64,000 nt of DNA, from NCBI GenBank assembly GCA_030531205.1, contig JAUNOC010000003.1, forward strand, positions 1 to 64,000, given 5' to 3'. This document shows, one piece after another, positions 9,349 through 57,209 of the stretch (its first letter is position 1; each line of letters begins with the position of its first letter). The stretch is from Phascolarctobacterium sp. GTDB lineage: Bacteria; Bacillota; Negativicutes; Acidaminococcales; Acidaminococcaceae. The translations under genes were made by a program, and so were the position numbers. The notes beneath the pieces were generated by a model that saw nothing but the letters and a program-made list of their open reading frames with translations, was not told the origin of the DNA and ran no database searches.

Positions 9349-10053
9349 ATGGACTACGGAACTAAGAATTTAACAATTGTTATTACCGGCGGGACAAGTG
9401 GTATCGGCAGGGCTTGTGCGGAGTTTTTGGCAAGTGAAGGGGCTAAGGTTTTTATATTGGCCAGGCATGAGAAAAAAGTAAAAAATTGTACTTTTATTAA
9501 ATGTGATGTTACCAAACGTATAGATGTCAAGAATGCAATGGCAAAGGTGGTGAAAGTTACTGGCAGTATTGACATTCTCATTAACAGTGCAGGCGTCTAT
9601 GCAGAGCAGATGCTGGAACGGAGCACTGACAAGGACTATGATTTGCTCATGGATACAAATGTGAAAGGTACAGTGCTGACAATTCAGTACGCACTCAAAT
9701 ATATGGACAAGGGCAATATTGTGAATGTGGCGAGTGATGCTGGGATAAGAGGAAATTACGGCTGTGCTTTGTATAGCGCAACTAAGGGGGCGGTGGTGGC
9801 ATTGACCCGTTCATTGGCATTAGATTTAGCACCGAATATACGTGTGAATTGCGTTTGCCCAGCCGATGTGGATACACCATTATTGCAAAAACAATGTAAG
9901 GCAGGGCATTACACTTACGCAGATGTGGCAAGTGTTTACCCGTTGCAAAGGGTTGCCAAAGCGGAAGAAATTGCCCATGTAATCTGTTCTGTGGCTTCTC
10001 CGGGCAATGGTTTTATGACGGGCAGTATTATTCCCGTTACCGGCGGATTATAA
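9349..10053 (+). CDS. Short-chain dehydrogenase/reductase
   Basis: 234 residues with a complete classical SDR core: the nucleotide motif TGGTSGIG near residue 14, the D-V after the third strand, the NSAGVYAE motif (NAG-type), an active-site Ser in NVASDAG, Y142-x3-K146 (YSATK), and the P-A-D-V-D-T-P-L segment. Reduces or oxidises an NAD(P)-linked alcohol/ketone; substrate unknown. The family resemblance to 3-oxoacyl-ACP reductase (FabG) is general only. It stands alone between repeats and the murI promoter. Confidence 0.9.
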   Translation: MDYGTKNLTIVITGGTSGIGRACAEFLASEGAKVFILARHEKKVKNCTFIKCDVTKRIDVKNAMAKVVKVTGSIDILINSAGVYAEQMLERSTDKDYDLLMDTNVKGTVLTIQYALKYMDKGNIVNVASDAGIRGNYGCALYSATKGAVVALTRSLALDLAPNIRVNCVCPADVDTPLLQKQCKAGHYTYADVASVYPLQRVAKAEEIAHVICSVASPGNGFMTGSIIPVTGGL

Positions 10054-10060
10054 TCTTTCT

Positions 10061-10089
10061 TTGCGCTATCAGAAAAATTATGCTATAAT
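10061..10089 (+). promoter_or_regulatory. Promoter of murI
   Basis: TTGCGC (10061-10066), 17-base spacer, TATAAT (10084-10089) with the extended TGC directly upstream of the -10 box. Confidence 0.65.
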
Positions 10090-10125
10090 ACATTCAATAA
10101 ATGGACATTTTTTAGGGAGATGACT

Positions 10126-10956
10126 ATGAAAAAAGAAGTAAAACCTGAATTGCCGGAGAAAAAGTTGCCCATAGGGGTTATTGACTCCGGTGTAGGCGGA
10201 CTCAGTGTCTTGAAGTGGCTTCAGGAAAAAATGCCTCACGAGGATTTTATTTATATTGGCGATACAGCACGTTGTCCTTATGGTAATGCTCATAGTGAAG
10301 ATGAGATTTTGGAGTTTAGCGCCCAAATGATTGATACACTGGGACAAAAGGGTGTGAAGGCCTTTGTGGTGGCCTGCAATACAATTTCTATGTTGGGTGG
10401 AGAAAACCTTCGTTTTGGTTATGAATTGCCTGTAATTACCATGAGTTTGGGAACCCAAATTCTTTTGAATACCAGTCCCACGAAGAAAATTGGTATTATG
10501 GCAACGCCTTTTACCATTAGCAAAGATTTGCATCGCAGTGCCATTTTGGCGGCGGATGCTTCTGCAGATGTAAGTGTGGTTGGGTGTCCTGATTTTGTTC
10601 CTTTGATTGAAGGGGAAAAATTTGGTTCTTTGAAACTTAGGATGACCATTACCAAATATTGTAAGGAATTCAGAGAAAAGGGTGTGGATACTATCATTCT
10701 TTCTTGCACCCATTATCCATTTATCCGTGAGGAGATTGAAAAGGAAATGGGACCGGGAGTGCATATTGTGGATCCGGCAGAGCAGACCGCATTGGATGTT
10801 ATGGAAACATTAGGTAAAGATTTGCTTAAAACAGAGGGGGCTGGTAAGGCCAAGATTTGTTGTACCGCAGATATATCCAGAGTCCGCCGTCTGGCAGAAA
10901 GAATTTTGGACTTAAAGAAATGTGAGTTCAGCGAAATTAAATTAGTTGAGTTATAA
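10126..10956 (+). CDS. murI: Glutamate racemase
   Basis: Converts L- to D-glutamate for peptidoglycan. 276 residues from ATG 10126, which is correctly spaced behind AGGGAG; the ATG at 10120 lies almost on the ribosome site. Shows the IGVIDSGVGGLSVL start, the C84-N-T motif (VACNTIS; the usual following Ala is Ile-Ser here) and C194-T-H-Y-P, the two catalytic cysteines. It is monocistronic, bounded by its own promoter and a strong terminator. An aspartate racemase is less likely given the DSGVGG and CPYG motifs. Confidence 0.93.
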   Translation: MKKEVKPELPEKKLPIGVIDSGVGGLSVLKWLQEKMPHEDFIYIGDTARCPYGNAHSEDEILEFSAQMIDTLGQKGVKAFVVACNTISMLGGENLRFGYELPVITMSLGTQILLNTSPTKKIGIMATPFTISKDLHRSAILAADASADVSVVGCPDFVPLIEGEKFGSLKLRMTITKYCKEFREKGVDTIILSCTHYPFIREEIEKEMGPGVHIVDPAEQTALDVMETLGKDLLKTEGAGKAKICCTADISRVRRLAERILDLKKCEFSEIKLVEL

Positions 10957-50610: not shown

Positions 50611-50633
50611 TATAAATGTAAACAGGAGAAATG

Positions 50634-50945
50634 ATGAATAAAGTTTTGGTGCCACAACTAAAAGAAAAATTAAAAATTATGGGACAGCAGATAAAAATGG
50701 CACGGTTACGCCGCCGATTACCTTTGGAACTGGTGGCGGAGCGTGCGGGGGTCAGCCGTGCCTCGGTTTATTCTGTTGAGAATGGTTCGCCGTCAGTGGC
50801 AATGGGGATTTATGCGTCTGTGTTAATGGCTTTGAACGGATTGGATAAGGACTTGCTTTTGATTGCGAAAGATGACGAATTGGGACGAAAGTTACAGGAC
50901 TTGGCGTTAATAACACCTAAACGGGCTCCACGACAAGGAAAGTGA
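50634..50945 (+). CDS. HipB-like XRE-family antitoxin
   Basis: 103 residues from ATG 50634 (AGGAGAA upstream; the adjacent ATG 50631 is too close). A helix-turn-helix of XRE type fills the middle (GQQIKMARLRRRLPLELVAER.AGVSRASVYSVENG in pieces). It likely represses its own promoter and neutralises the kinase encoded four bases downstream. Confidence 0.88.
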   Translation: MNKVLVPQLKEKLKIMGQQIKMARLRRRLPLELVAERAGVSRASVYSVENGSPSVAMGIYASVLMALNGLDKDLLLIAKDDELGRKLQDLALITPKRAPRQGK

Positions 50946-50949
50946 AAAA

Positions 50950-52185
50950 ATGAGCAAAATGATTTATGTTTATGAAAACAATAGTGCAGGTATGGATGTT
51001 TTGGTCGGTTATGTCTATGTGGAAGAAGTCAATGGCAAGGAAGTATTTGCTTTTGAATATGCTGATGACTGGTTGACCGGGCATATAGGCAATGTAAGTT
51101 TTGACCCGGATATAAATATGTATGCCGGCAGGCAATATTTGGACAATAACAAAACTATTTTCGGTATGTTGGCAGATTCCTGTCCTGACAGATGGGGAAG
51201 AATGTTGATGCAACGCAGGGAAAGCATTATTGCACAAAAAGAAAAAAGGCATCCAAGAAAGTTGTTGGAAAGCGATTTTTTGTTAGGAGTTTATGACGGT
51301 GCAAGAATTGGCTCTTTGCGTTACAAGTTGGATAGGGATGCTGATTTTTTGGCTAATGACAAGAATTTGGCTGTGCCGCCTTGGGTGGCATTACATAAAC
51401 TGGAAAATGCTTCTTGGGCATTTGAACAAGGTGAAAGTGCAAATGAATGGTTGGAAATTTTAATTGCACCAGGTTCTTCCTTGGGCGGAGCCCGTCCCAA
51501 AGCCACTGTTCAAGATGAAAAAGGAAATCTGTGGATTGCCAAATTCCCGTCAAAAAATGACGAATATGATGTAGGGGCATGGGAAATGGTGGTACATGAC
51601 TTGGCGGCAATGGTTGGCTTGAATGTACCTTTGGCACGATTGGAAAAGTTTTCGGAAAAAGGTTCCACCTTTCTTGTAAAAAGATTTGACCGATTAGATA
51701 ACAGAAGATTACATTTTGCATCCGCAATGACATTGTTAGGCAAACAGGACGGGGAATTTGGCACCAGTTATCTTGATTTAGTGAATTTTATTTGTTCTTA
51801 CGGGGTACAGGTGGAGCAAGATTTAAAAGAATTATGGAAACGGGTTGCCTTTAGCATGTTGGTGGGAAATACGGATGACCATTTAAGAAATCACGGCTTT
51901 TTGTTGGAGCAAAACGGTTGGCATCTTTCCCCCATATTTGATGTAAATCCTGTACCTTATGGAAATAATTTGGGTTTATTGATAAATGAAAAAAGCAGTT
52001 TGATTAATGAAGATTTGCTTTTGAGCACAGCAAAATATTACAGATTGTCAGATAGTGAGGCAAAAACTATTTTCAAGGAAATGCAAACAACTGTTAATTC
52101 ACATTGGCAAACTAAAGCAAAACAATATAAAATAAAAAGAAAGAGTATAGAATATATGCAGGAAGCGTTTGCAAAGATGTTGTAG
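50950..52185 (+). CDS. HipA-family serine/threonine kinase toxin
   Basis: 411 residues. N-terminal HipA_N domain (about 15-110) and C-terminal kinase-like domain: LGGARPKA ATP-binding segment, LVKRFDR, and the catalytic GNTDDHLRNHGFLL with the DFD-type PIFDVNP after it. Relatives phosphorylate glutamyl-tRNA synthetase or other targets to arrest growth. All key motifs intact. Probably cotranscribed with hipB. Confidence 0.93.
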   Translation: MSKMIYVYENNSAGMDVLVGYVYVEEVNGKEVFAFEYADDWLTGHIGNVSFDPDINMYAGRQYLDNNKTIFGMLADSCPDRWGRMLMQRRESIIAQKEKRHPRKLLESDFLLGVYDGARIGSLRYKLDRDADFLANDKNLAVPPWVALHKLENASWAFEQGESANEWLEILIAPGSSLGGARPKATVQDEKGNLWIAKFPSKNDEYDVGAWEMVVHDLAAMVGLNVPLARLEKFSEKGSTFLVKRFDRLDNRRLHFASAMTLLGKQDGEFGTSYLDLVNFICSYGVQVEQDLKELWKRVAFSMLVGNTDDHLRNHGFLLEQNGWHLSPIFDVNPVPYGNNLGLLINEKSSLINEDLLLSTAKYYRLSDSEAKTIFKEMQTTVNSHWQTKAKQYKIKRKSIEYMQEAFAKML

Positions 52186-53062: not shown

Positions 53063-53112
53063 CAAGTGTCTGGGATGTTACGCAAACGGAACACCACAGA
53101 CACTTGTTTTTA
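53063..53112. terminator. Terminator/palindrome with the 24-bp repeat, left copy
   Basis: CAAGTGTCTG (53063-53072) and CAGACACTTG (53097-53106) close a long stem whose inner part TGTTACG-CAAA-CGGAACA belongs to a 24-base word (53076-53099) repeated with one mismatch at 56234-56257. Followed by TTTTTATGCTAT. Terminates the minus-strand XRE gene in the other direction too. Confidence 0.75.
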
Positions 53113-53441: not shown

Positions 53442-53470
53442 TTGACACGGGTGTATATATATGATAGAAT
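53442..53470 (+). promoter_or_regulatory. Promoter of the DUF1232/RiPP genes
   Basis: TTGACA (53442-53447), 17-base spacer, TAGAAT (53465-53470). The region 53404-53441 holds the divergent XRE start. Confidence 0.68.
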
Positions 53471-53541
53471 ACGACAAATATTTATATATGAGTAGAAATA
53501 TCCTCATGCAGTACTTGGGGAAGGGAAAAGGTATTTTTAAT

Positions 53542-53910
53542 ATGAGTAAATTTTCAGATGAAGAATTAACAGAATCAATGAATAAGTACGCTGGTACTTA
53601 TGATGACAGCAAATTTTGGTCTATCATTAGAAAGTATGGCAAGAAAATTGGCGGTGGCTTGCTGACAAAGGCATTGCAACTTTATTATCTTTTGCAAAAA
53701 GGGGATGTCCCGAACAAAATAAAACTTATGATTATGGGGGCATTGGCATATTTGGTCAGTCCTGTGGATTTGATACCTGACTTGATACCATTGTTAGGAT
53801 GGACGGATGATGCGGCGGCAGTTGGCTTGGTTGTGAACCAGTTAAGTAACTATATGGACAGTGATATAGTGGATATGGCACGAAAGAAGATAGAGGAGAT
53901 TTTTGGATAA
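53542..53910 (+). CDS. DUF1232 (YkvA-like) protein, first copy
   Basis: 122 residues from ATG 53542, which follows AAGGGAAAAGG; an in-frame ATG at 53461 lies inside the promoter. The YkvA/DUF1232 motif is IMGALAYLVSPVDLIPDLIPLLGWTDDAAAVGLV in pieces (A-Y-L-V-S-P-x-D-L-I-P-D and G-x-x-D-D). The family is membrane-associated and of unknown function. Very similar to the copy at 56853-57209 in both motif and surrounding helices. Confidence 0.85.
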   Translation: MSKFSDEELTESMNKYAGTYDDSKFWSIIRKYGKKIGGGLLTKALQLYYLLQKGDVPNKIKLMIMGALAYLVSPVDLIPDLIPLLGWTDDAAAVGLVVNQLSNYMDSDIVDMARKKIEEIFG

Positions 53911-53940: not shown

Positions 53941-54273
53941 ATGGTGAATAATTTGGGAAATGATATTTCAATAACTATTGAGGATATTCACAAAAGATTA
54001 CAAGGAAAAGATTGGCTAAAAATTGAGATTGTTACGGAATATCTTGAGATGTTAGGCGGGAAAATAAGAGTGCGTTCAGTTGATTTGAAATATAGTTGTG
54101 AGTTGAAAAATGATGAAAAAAAAGTATTAGAGAAAAGTCAAAACAATATTATTAATAATTTGGAATTTGACAAACAGAATGAACTTATAGATTATGTAGC
54201 GAATTATTATGCTGTTCCAAAAGAAAATGTAAAGATTGTGTGTTCAGAGATAGTTAAAGATCATTTTGATTAA
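53941..54273 (+). CDS. Hypothetical protein upstream of the RiPP precursor
   Basis: 110 residues, unknown family. Predicted mixed alpha/beta, with acidic and lysine-rich stretches (ISITIEDIHKRLQGKDWLKI, then EKSQNNIINNLEFDKQNELI). Much more AT-rich than the genes outside the island, as are the next three genes. The start ATG 53941 has only a weak GAAGGT site upstream. Position in the cluster suggests an immunity or accessory role, which is a guess. Confidence 0.65.
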   Translation: MVNNLGNDISITIEDIHKRLQGKDWLKIEIVTEYLEMLGGKIRVRSVDLKYSCELKNDEKKVLEKSQNNIINNLEFDKQNELIDYVANYYAVPKENVKIVCSEIVKDHFD

Positions 54274-54362
54274 AATATTTGTCCTAATATTTTATATGAC
54301 AGACAGATATTCTTAATAAAATAATTCAATATTTAATGTTGAATGGAAAGGAGAAATATATT

Positions 54363-54476
54363 ATGAAGAAAATCAGTTATAAAAAACCTATGATTTTAGC
54401 AAAATTAAGTATGGGATATGACTGCTCTCGGCGTACGCAACATGTAAGTACACCAATTAATTGTAGAATTCCATAA
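54363..54476 (+). CDS. 37-residue RiPP precursor peptide candidate
   Basis: Starts at ATG 54363 behind AAAGGAGAAATATATT and ends at TAA 54474. The peptide is basic at the N-terminus (MKKISYKKPMILAKL), then GYDC with Cys21, and a core containing Cys34 (SRRTQHVSTPINC and RIP at the end). Short basic leader, KKPMI motif and a core with two Cys resemble precursors of radical SAM-modified peptides (ranthipeptide/sactipeptide-like). A perfect terminator hairpin separates it from the maturase gene. Modification and product are inferred. Confidence 0.75.
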   Translation: MKKISYKKPMILAKLSMGYDCSRRTQHVSTPINCRIP

Positions 54477-54485
54477 TTAATTTGT

Positions 54486-54535
54486 AAAAGACAAAACGCA
54501 TTATGCTGATTGTATAATGCGTTTTGTCTTTTTAG
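54486..54535 (+). terminator. Terminator/attenuator between precursor and maturase
   Basis: A 19-bp perfect stem (54486-54504 with 54514-54532), 9-base loop GCTGATTGT, followed by TTTTTAG. Partial read-through would make far more precursor than maturase mRNA, as in many RiPP operons. Confidence 0.85.
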
Positions 54536-54553
54536 TTTGAAAGGAGACAAGAA

Positions 54554-55987
54554 GTGTTTTATTCGTTGAAAAAAGATTGTTATTTTAGAAAATATGGTAA
54601 TATCGGTTATATAGTGCATTCAATTTATTTTATTGGAGAAGTAGTCAATGAATCAGGAACATTATTTATTGAGCAGTTAGATTATTCACTCAAAAGCATA
54701 GACGAAATTGTTAAAAAGTTGCTTTTTGTTTTTGATGATGTTGATGAAAGAAATCTAAAAAACGATATTATTGAATTTTATGAATATCTATATTCAGTCG
54801 GTTATTTAAATCGTTGTAGTAATCCGAATAATTTTACTGAAGAAATAAAAGATGTTTCTACGATTACAAATGAACCAATAACAAAAGATGTAGATGTTAT
54901 TACAAATAAAACTATTTCGGAGTTTTTTGCAGATTATGCAAAAAACAACCCTTTTCTTGTTACGTTTCATGTTGAATTGACAAGCAAATGTAATGAAAGA
55001 TGTGTTCATTGCTATATACCGCATGAAACAAAAAATAATGAGATTGATTATGATTTACTCGTGGATATTATTGCTCAATGTAGAGATATGGGGGTTATGA
55101 ATATAGTACTTTCAGGTGGAGAGCCAATGTTATATCCCTATTTTAGTGATGTTCTTAAAAAGATTAAAGATTATGATATGAATGTCGTAGTATTAAGTAA
55201 TCTAACATTGTTGGATGATAAAATAATTCAAACATTGCAATATAAGCATACCACTTGTGTAAATGTTTCGTTATACTCTATGGAAGCCGGTATTCATGAA
55301 AGCATCACTATGCTAAAAGGGTCATTTGAAAAAACGAAGAATAATATTTTAAAATTAATTGATAATAATATCCCTGTTCGAATTAACTGCCCTATCATGA
55401 AACAAAATAAAGATAATTTTGTTGAAGTTATGCGATGGGGATATCAGCATAAATGTAGTGTTAAAGTTGATTATTTGATGATGGCAAAAAAGGATGGTAC
55501 ATTAGATAATTTAAGCAATCGTTTATCGAGTCAGGAATTACGAAATGTCATGAAGAATATTATAAATAATGATGAGGACTTACAGTGCAAAATAAGAAAT
55601 GGTAACAAGAAAATTTCAAAACCAGTATGTTTAGATACACAGGCATTGTGTGGAGTTGGGTTGACAACACTTTCTATGGATAGTCAGGGGAATATTTATC
55701 CTTGTGTAGGGTGGCAAAAATGTAATTGTGGTAATGTAAAGGAAACTGCATTGAAAGATATTTGGGAACATTCTAAGGAATTAAATTATTTAAGAAAATT
55801 AAGATTTGGGGATTTTGTGGAATGTAGAAATTGTGAAGATGTACATTATTGTGCGATGTGTTTAAGTATGAATGCGAATGAGAGTAAAGATGGGGATGTA
55901 TTTGATATCCCTAAAATTACATGTGAGGCAGCAAAAATTTATCATAAAGTTATTGAAGAATATTATAAAAAAATAGAGAATAAGTAA
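54554..55987 (+). CDS. Radical SAM/SPASM peptide maturase with PqqD-like domain
   Basis: 477 residues from GTG 54554 (AAGGAG with 7-base spacing). Residues 1-100 form a PqqD-like RiPP recognition domain; radical SAM core with C146-x3-C150-x2-C153 (CNERCVHC), LSGGEPMLYP and ITMLKGSFEKTKNNI; SPASM domain with CGVGLTTLSMDSQGNIYPC, WQKCNCGN, FVECRNCEDVHYCAMC and a last Cys near CEA. Such enzymes install thioether or C-C links on Cys-containing peptides. It should modify the upstream 37-mer. AT-rich coding suggests horizontal acquisition. Confidence 0.92.
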   Translation: MFYSLKKDCYFRKYGNIGYIVHSIYFIGEVVNESGTLFIEQLDYSLKSIDEIVKKLLFVFDDVDERNLKNDIIEFYEYLYSVGYLNRCSNPNNFTEEIKDVSTITNEPITKDVDVITNKTISEFFADYAKNNPFLVTFHVELTSKCNERCVHCYIPHETKNNEIDYDLLVDIIAQCRDMGVMNIVLSGGEPMLYPYFSDVLKKIKDYDMNVVVLSNLTLLDDKIIQTLQYKHTTCVNVSLYSMEAGIHESITMLKGSFEKTKNNILKLIDNNIPVRINCPIMKQNKDNFVEVMRWGYQHKCSVKVDYLMMAKKDGTLDNLSNRLSSQELRNVMKNIINNDEDLQCKIRNGNKKISKPVCLDTQALCGVGLTTLSMDSQGNIYPCVGWQKCNCGNVKETALKDIWEHSKELNYLRKLRFGDFVECRNCEDVHYCAMCLSMNANESKDGDVFDIPKITCEAAKIYHKVIEEYYKKIENK

Positions 55988-56015
55988 TAGTGTCAATAAA
56001 AGAGGAGGATGTACT

Positions 56016-56171
56016 ATGTCTGTTATGTATGAATGGGTATGCGAAAATTGTGGGAAAAAAGTGTTGCGTGGAGAAACACTTGGTCGTCCACAACCGGGAG
56101 TATGTCCGAGAGCTCTATTTAAGGGCAGACCTCACCGTTGGACAAAAAATAGGACGTTTGGGAAAAAATAA
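56016..56171 (+). CDS. 51-residue zinc-ribbon protein
   Basis: Small gene with strong GAGGAGG ribosome site before ATG 56016. Begins MSVMYEWVCENCGKKV (C9-x2-C12-G) and later has PGVC30P and HRW, a pattern of small rubredoxin-like zinc ribbons. Preferred over an overlapping frame from 55990, which has no ribosome site and no such motif. Located 28 bases behind the maturase, so cotranscribed; it may be an accessory (electron transfer or regulatory) factor. Confidence 0.7.
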   Translation: MSVMYEWVCENCGKKVLRGETLGRPQPGVCPRALFKGRPHRWTKNRTFGKK

Positions 56172-56228: not shown

Positions 56229-56268
56229 TGTGGTGTTACGCAAACGTAACACCACAGGGAAATATTTT
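56229..56268. terminator. Terminator/palindrome with the 24-bp repeat, right copy
   Basis: TGTGGTGTTACG (56229-56240), CAAA, CGTAACACCACA (56245-56256): a perfect 12-bp stem. Bases 56234-56257 match 53076-53099 in 23 of 24 positions, in direct orientation, and both copies are followed within 15 bases by TTTTTATGYTAT. Confidence 0.78.
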
Positions 56269-56636: not shown

Positions 56637-56769
56637 TAATGGGAAGAAATATGTTTTTGGTGCATTAAAAGAGAATAATTATTGGGAAGAAGAAACCGTT
56701 TTGACGTTGCAAAACGGTTTCTTAGTGTCCATAGTAAGGTGGTTAAAAAGAATATTCAGGTTAAAATGA
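56629..56769 (+). CDS. Possible 46-residue protein
   Basis: ATG 56629 overlaps the XRE stop by 8 bases and has GAAGGAG upstream. The frame contains a hairpin GAAACCGTTTT/AAAACGGTTTC (56692-56721), so it may be a non-coding leader with a terminator-like stem instead. The peptide ends in a basic, hydrophobic tail (VRWLKRIFRLK). Uncertain. Confidence 0.35.
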   Translation: MNNNGKKYVFGALKENNYWEEETVLTLQNGFLVSIVRWLKRIFRLK

Positions 56770-56852
56770 GAGAGTGGTTTTGGCTGTACTACAAAAGTTT
56801 ATATAATGGTCTTGAAGATGATATTTTATCTGTGAAAAGGGGAGATTTTGAG

Positions 56853-57209
56853 ATGGATAAGGTTTCTTTGGAAGAGATTAACAGTTTCAGCGGTAAGTAT
56901 AATGAAAGTATGTTTTGGACGGGGTTACGAAAGATTTGTTCTACCGTAGGCAAAGAGGTGGTGTATAAGGTTTTGCAACTATATTACGTATTGCAAAAGG
57001 ATAGTGTGCCTACCTCGCAAAAAGTTCTCATTATGGGAGCGTTGGCATATTTGGTAAGTCCTGTTGATGTTGTGCCTGACTGTATTCCTATTGTGGGTTG
57101 GGTGGATGATGTGGCTGCCATCGGTGTTGTGCTGAGCCAGATTTCCAAATATGTGGACGGGGATATCAACAGCAAAGTTGAGGATAAAATAGAAGAACTT
57201 TTTGCCTGA
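56853..57209 (+). CDS. DUF1232 (YkvA-like) protein, second copy
   Basis: 118 residues from ATG 56853 (AAGGGGAG upstream); a longer frame from 56682 or 56766 exists but has no comparable ribosome site and its extra residues do not match the first copy. VLIMGALAYLVSPVDVVPDCIPIVGWVDDVAAIGVV in pieces is the DUF1232 motif. Identity with the copy at 53.5 kb is high through the helical N-terminal half (KVLQLYYVLQKDSVP against KALQLYYLLQKGDVP). Function unknown. Confidence 0.85.
   Translation: MDKVSLEEINSFSGKYNESMFWTGLRKICSTVGKEVVYKVLQLYYVLQKDSVPTSQKVLIMGALAYLVSPVDVVPDCIPIVGWVDDVAAIGVVLSQISKYVDGDINSKVEDKIEELFA

Follow-up and report, generated by a model that had tools for sequence, protein, structure and literature searches.

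A probable two-gene RiPP cassette in a Phascolarctobacterium genome, a divergent member of a peptide and maturase family carried by plasmids and phages

Results

The peptide gene, the hairpin and the maturase gene

The window, i.e. the 64,000 nucleotides of Phascolarctobacterium sp. contig JAUNOC010000003.1 that were analysed, carries a short peptide gene, a hairpin and a gene for a PqqD-radical SAM-SPASM maturase, one after the other (Table 1). The 37-residue frame noted in a preliminary description of this DNA is real, with an ATG start behind a strong AAAGGAG site, and encodes MKKISYKKPMILAKLSMGYDCSRRTQHVSTPINCRIP, in which the leader SYKKPMILAK precedes the core CSRRTQHVSTPINCRIP with its two cysteines, C21 and C34. 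The core contains neither the GRPC[NK]PP motif nor CxPN or GRPCNPP. In line with the earlier claim, the peptide belongs to none of the curated precursor families, without a match above cut-off in NCBIfam or Pfam.

The open reading frame and Pfam likewise agree with the maturase as first described, a 477-residue protein with a CNERCVHC site, a PqqD-like and a SPASM domain. Radical_SAM (PF04055) covers residues 141-295 with 76.8 bits (cut-off 29.5), SPASM (PF13186) residues 366-428 with 35.8 bits (cut-off 21.5) and PqqD (PF05402) residues 31-84 with 24.1 bits, just above the cut-off of 23.4. The cysteines of CNERCVHC, which has the CxxxCxxC form of radical SAM sites, are C146, C150 and C153; they are invariant in the maturase alignment (A3), and so are C366, C384, C424, C427, C433, C436 and C457; the former would ligate the radical cluster and the latter the auxiliary clusters. 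No curated NCBIfam family claims the enzyme, the similarity being at superfamily level (e.g. 93 bits where the cut-off is 500), and searches of NCBIfam, Pfam, PHROGs and PADLOC with the cassette gave superfamily-level matches and no specific family. An AlphaFold model of the maturase, made from a three-row alignment, reached a pLDDT of 58.6 and was too poor to use.

The hairpin between the two genes is a 19-bp perfect inverted repeat, as reported before, and its RNA folds at -32 kcal/mol (z = -7.3), a stability equalled by none of 200 shuffles. A stable hairpin occupies the gap between peptide and maturase genes in nine of nine distinct loci, with folding z-scores of -3.2 to -7.3. As the hairpin sequences differ among the loci, it is the structure and its position that are conserved. 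A U-tract follows the hairpin in the window and on the plasmids and is absent from the L037 and L104 copies. Since several copies lack it, the hairpin is not a classical terminator everywhere, and the element originally called an attenuator is thus general as a hairpin but not as a terminator. Its shared effect is probably an abundant peptide message and little enzyme message, which some copies may reach through partial termination and others through protection of the 3' end.

Table 1. Features of the cassette in the window, the adjoining zinc-ribbon frame, and family peptide genes on phage records
Feature	Position	Strand	Basis or context
RBS of precursor gene (AAAGGAG)	54347..54353	+	sequence
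Precursor peptide gene, 37 aa	54363..54476	+	ORF, ATG start, strong RBS
Hairpin, terminator-like, U-rich 3' side	54486..54532	+	arms 54486-54504 / 54514-54532
RBS of maturase gene (AAAGGAG)	54540..54546	+	sequence
PqqD-radical SAM-SPASM maturase, 477 aa	54554..55987	+	GTG start; Pfam; clade 97/99
Zinc-ribbon ORF, 51 aa	56016-56171	same as maturase	starts 28 bases past maturase stop
Orphan family peptide	L052 5959-6075	-	among terminase and HslV-like peptidase genes
Orphan family peptide	L054 1612-1728	-	same kind of phage contig as L052
Orphan family peptide	L059 4500-4571	-	5' end cut off; same kind of contig as L052
Orphan family peptide	L053 351-467	-	94-kb contig with DNA polymerase

The zinc ribbon is most likely a neighbour

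The 51-residue frame downstream of the maturase is also real, and its orientation and its start 28 bases after the maturase stop could point to a system of three parts, with the zinc ribbon active in maturation or metal delivery as the third component envisaged in the preliminary description. We consider this very improbable: the zinc ribbon has a host-like G+C of 43%, against 29% for the cassette, it is absent from the other copies of the cassette, and its homologues in related genomes occur without the maturase. The match of the window frame to Zn_ribbon_8 (E = 0.036) is weak and below the Pfam cut-off, but copies in related genomes share the motif CxxC...GxPxxGxC..K...PHxW. At a lax threshold homologues are present in 9 of 99 related genomes. 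Inspection by eye identified the same type (CxxC, GxPxxGxC, PHxW) in four related genomes, with a partial match in G001, and beside none of these same-type homologues was there a relative of the window maturase; in two related genomes a DUF1232 gene is near the zinc ribbon, as it is in the window. The zinc ribbon is therefore most likely a host gene beside which the cassette landed.

Relatives of the maturase on mobile elements

Full-length relatives share 36-41% identity with the window enzyme and are rare. Among 72,556 plasmid records seven have one (five from E. coli, one from Salmonella and one from Photobacterium). All seven plasmids are typed as conjugative, and the four that were looked at in detail have F-type mating-pair genes. 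Among sampled genomes a full-length maturase was found in three of 300 from the host's class, the host included, and in one of 296 from the phylum of the L001 genome, a record titled Sediminibacterium. The L037 enzyme is on a phage contig, Mu-like by reading of its ORFs, and that of L038 on a contig where two tyrosine recombinases precede it and one integrase-like ORF follows. Chromosomal members are sparse (L104, L105 and L107), and as L107 is on a 6.4-kb contig from a sample of the L001 phylum while its enzyme groups with those of L037 and L104 in the tree, contamination is possible for this one. Damaged copies occur as well, L049 being interrupted and L041 and L112 fragments. A scan of GTDB contigs with a single sequence gave two distant relatives, and the sole match in complete E. 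coli genomes was a recombinase fragment.

In the maximum-likelihood tree the window maturase stands on a long branch within the clade of the mobile family, together with its members from plasmids, phages and chromosomes (support 97/99); the distant maturases fall outside this clade. The cassette has a G+C of 29% in a window of 42%; similarly, the maturase gene has 30% in a plasmid stretch of 44% and 35% in a phage stretch of 63%, and serine recombinases adjoin plasmid copies. Most likely the cassette spread between unrelated bacteria by plasmids, phages and defence islands, the window holding a divergent copy.

A peptide gene precedes each maturase gene

In nine distinct loci the order of peptide gene, hairpin and maturase gene is the same, with the peptide directly upstream. 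All full-length maturase homologues that were found were inspected, as earlier proposed, and each is preceded by a short two-cysteine peptide whose leader contains Y..P. The main form has a length of about 38 residues and resembles Y.KP..LAQST..MAQC.PNSKPSGRPCNPPGPSGR. The plasmid peptide is MSYSKPTVLAKSSTYMAQCRPNSKPSGRPCNPPGPSGR, that of the L037 phage contig MIYKRPEILAQGTVKMAECKPNSKPSGRPCNPPRPTGR, that of L038 MKKYQTPTLVAQSTVKMADCRPNRRPCGRPCNPPGPGGR and that of a genome from the class of the host MVYEKPVILAQSTVQMAQCRPNSKPSGRPCNPPGPSGR, the starts of the last two having been picked by eye. The core is nearly unchanged between the gammaproteobacterial plasmids, these two contigs and the genome of the host's class; for a mobile gene, this degree of conservation suggests a conserved target or demanding chemistry. 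The precursor genes of E. coli and Photobacterium differ in 17 of 38 codons, all silently and with no amino-acid change, indicating that the main-family peptide is translated and under strong purifying selection. As the gene tables of the plasmids omit the peptide and label the enzyme simply 'radical SAM protein', the system is easily missed in these records.

The window peptide and that of L105 differ from this form in the core, although the Y-x-x-P of the leader and two cysteines in the second half are retained; all precursors in the clade have two cysteines. Against a profile of nine precursors from other loci, from which the window peptide was left out, the latter ranked first among the 883 window ORFs of at least 20 aa and was equalled by one of 5000 shuffles, and both this ranking and the alignment recover a Y-x-x-P leader followed by two core cysteines. 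The match itself is modest (E = 0.078 for the set searched), and membership in the family is convincing because the peptide adjoins the right enzyme. That the adjacent maturase acts on this peptide, as had been suggested, is very probable. Searches of viral contigs with patterns specific to the window peptide returned no relatives, and no relative near enough for a selection test on the window's own copy was found. Peptides of distant maturases also have Y..KP leaders, so this motif could be a general recognition element instead of a mark of the family.

The loss of the conserved core motifs could also mean that the window peptide is decaying, i.e. that a GRPCNPP-type core arrived, lost its role and drifted while the maturase frame stayed open. 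Degraded maturases do occur elsewhere (interrupted by a transposase in G276, fragments in G190 and G904). We find decay improbable, as the peptide gene retains its start site and still encodes the leader and both cysteines, its 19-bp hairpin is perfect, and the maturase has all of its radical and SPASM cysteines. Moreover, L105 has a divergent two-cysteine core next to an intact maturase, showing that the core changes elsewhere in the clade too. The window peptide is a divergent member of the family, as is that of L105, with leader and cysteines retained and the core different.

Phages with the peptide alone

Four phage records, of two kinds (L052, L054 and L059 on the one hand and L053 on the other), carry a peptide gene of the main family and no recognisable maturase that we could find (Table 1); as these records are possibly fragments, it is uncertain whether the maturase is truly missing. 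In L052 and L053 the peptide gene is tightly packed between co-directional genes. What a phage gains from a peptide that it cannot itself modify is the question that these substrate-only phages pose.

Discussion

Based on the genes and their domains, the conserved gene order, the purifying selection on the main-family peptide and the mobility of the cassette, we propose that the window holds a horizontally acquired two-gene RiPP cassette whose maturase crosslinks the peptide at its core cysteines, a reading to which we give a probability of about 0.75. The pairing of substrate and enzyme, the ratio of their expression and the crosslink chemistry we infer, as we do the leader binding, the type of bond, the cleavage and the target of the peptide. 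The 37-residue peptide would be made in quantity, while the hairpin behind its gene would restrain the downstream enzyme. By homology, the PqqD-like domain may bind the leader via the Y-x-x-P motif, the radical SAM cluster would generate a 5'-deoxyadenosyl radical, and the SPASM clusters would take the electron back during bond formation. The two cysteines of every clade precursor are the natural crosslink sites and make a thioether the first guess; one or two such crosslinks would most likely form at those of the window core. As the cassette has no exporter, protease or immunity gene, its product probably acts within the cell or relies on host functions.

Known systems share parts of this arrangement. 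The sactipeptide maturases AlbA, SkfB and StsB also combine radical SAM and SPASM domains with an N-terminal recognition domain and an adjacent short cysteine-containing precursor, and the sactisynthase SkfB is the nearest solved structure to the window maturase by sequence profile (6.4e-18). However, identity is limited to the radical SAM/SPASM region, the precursor sequences are unlike, and the cassette has neither exporter nor immunity genes. Their family models are not passed by the window maturase, with 65 of 850 bits for AlbA, 57 of 300 for SkfB and 78 of 625 for StsB. The ranthipeptide maturases of the PapB and SCIFF/CteB type are alike in layout, which in CteB is PqqD-rSAM-SPASM, and a cysteine thioether chemistry is plausible for the window enzyme as well. 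SCIFF precursors have six cysteines, whereas the window precursor has two and matches no NCBIfam precursor model; against the PapB model the maturase scores 64 of 340 bits, and the Cys-x3-Asp motif is absent from the window peptide. The SkfB profile match and the weak matches to the AlbA, StsB and PapB models would fit an ordinary secreted bacteriocin of sactipeptide or ranthipeptide type, with exporter and immunity gene elsewhere in the genome. We think this unlikely, given that the scores are so far below the curated cut-offs, that in the neighbourhoods listed we noticed no transporter or protease immediately adjoining a copy, and that the peptide occurs alone on phage contigs of two kinds.

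The company that the cassette keeps suggests another role. Type I restriction-modification genes directly follow L104, genes of the TOTE primase-helicase type are near L049, which also has an Mrr nuclease, and beside L112, and an AriA/OLD-like ATPase gene directly precedes L107; these known or candidate conflict genes are neighbours as seen at the copies named. Given these neighbours, together with the plasmids and phages themselves, a part in conflict between mobile elements is plausible and the most likely biological role, though we hold it tentatively. RiPPs in general have been linked to phage interactions in a metagenome study (PMC11118758). A more specific and rather doubtful version is that the crosslinked peptide serves as an intracellular weapon or shield among plasmids, phages and hosts, its minimal mobile cassette of two genes providing neither export nor immunity, and that the substrate-only copies of some phages use, saturate or subvert a maturase that the host already has. 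PADLOC has no specific defence-system match for the maturase; its radical SAM match is to the prokaryotic viperins (pVip), which are found in defence contexts, at the generic level of the superfamily (1.3e-18). Viperins make nucleotide analogues and, to our knowledge, have neither a SPASM or PqqD domain nor a peptide partner.

The cassette had no match in the family libraries or papers searched, its core and leader strings were absent from the open full texts searched, and we found no literature joining SPASM, a precursor peptide and a defense island. The GRPCNPPxP pattern was likewise absent from all 395 genomes of the L001 phylum. The family of two-gene cassettes is previously unnamed and apparently undescribed, and it is the family itself, its spread, the strict conservation of its peptide and the substrate-only phages that are new here. 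The undescribed cluster of the preliminary description is accordingly real as a pair of genes, not as three, and represents a single, divergent copy within a mobile family. As the cassette is about 1.8 kb long and on plasmids already resident in E. coli, tests of its chemistry and of its effect on phages should be easy.

Other radical SAM enzymes with peptides came into view during the analysis. Chromosomal rSAM/SPASM enzymes of the host's class (L004-L021) are 27-36% identical to the window maturase over the radical SAM core, and their peptides share C-x-P units with the main core of the mobile family. They differ from the cassette in that the enzyme is of about 406-442 aa and the peptide is downstream, long, repetitive and without a Y..KP leader. 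In L007-L009, L011, L012 and L016 long peptides of Cys-x-Pro repeats, e.g. of CFPRQ, follow PqqD-rSAM-SPASM genes, and the repeat peptide of L016 has no match among NCBIfam models. More distant rSAM/SPASM genes in L108, L109, L110 and L111 are followed by short cysteine peptides (at 6518-6777 in L108 and 3179-3307 in L109, oriented); L109 and L111 peptides have KTYQKPV leaders, and L108 has two peptides in tandem. Directly after the divergent cassette of L105 is a second, different radical SAM gene (9641-10723, oriented).

The surroundings of the cassette in the window have features of their own. Some 2-4 kb upstream, at 50631-52185, a helix-turn-helix gene is followed by a gene that reads as HipA-like, by its sequence a probable toxin-antitoxin pair. 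The 110-aa ORF directly upstream of the precursor (53941-54273) belongs to no family, equals the cassette in AT-richness (G+C of 27%) and may have arrived with it. Two DUF1232 genes, about 51% identical, flank the cassette at 53461-53910 and 56682-57209, and a third match is outside the window at G000:C13:70998. The palindrome GGTGTTACGCAAACGTAACACC occurs at 53073-53096 and 56231-56254, one copy being exact and one having three mismatches; by chance none is expected, and the pair brackets the cassette, one DUF1232 gene and the zinc ribbon.
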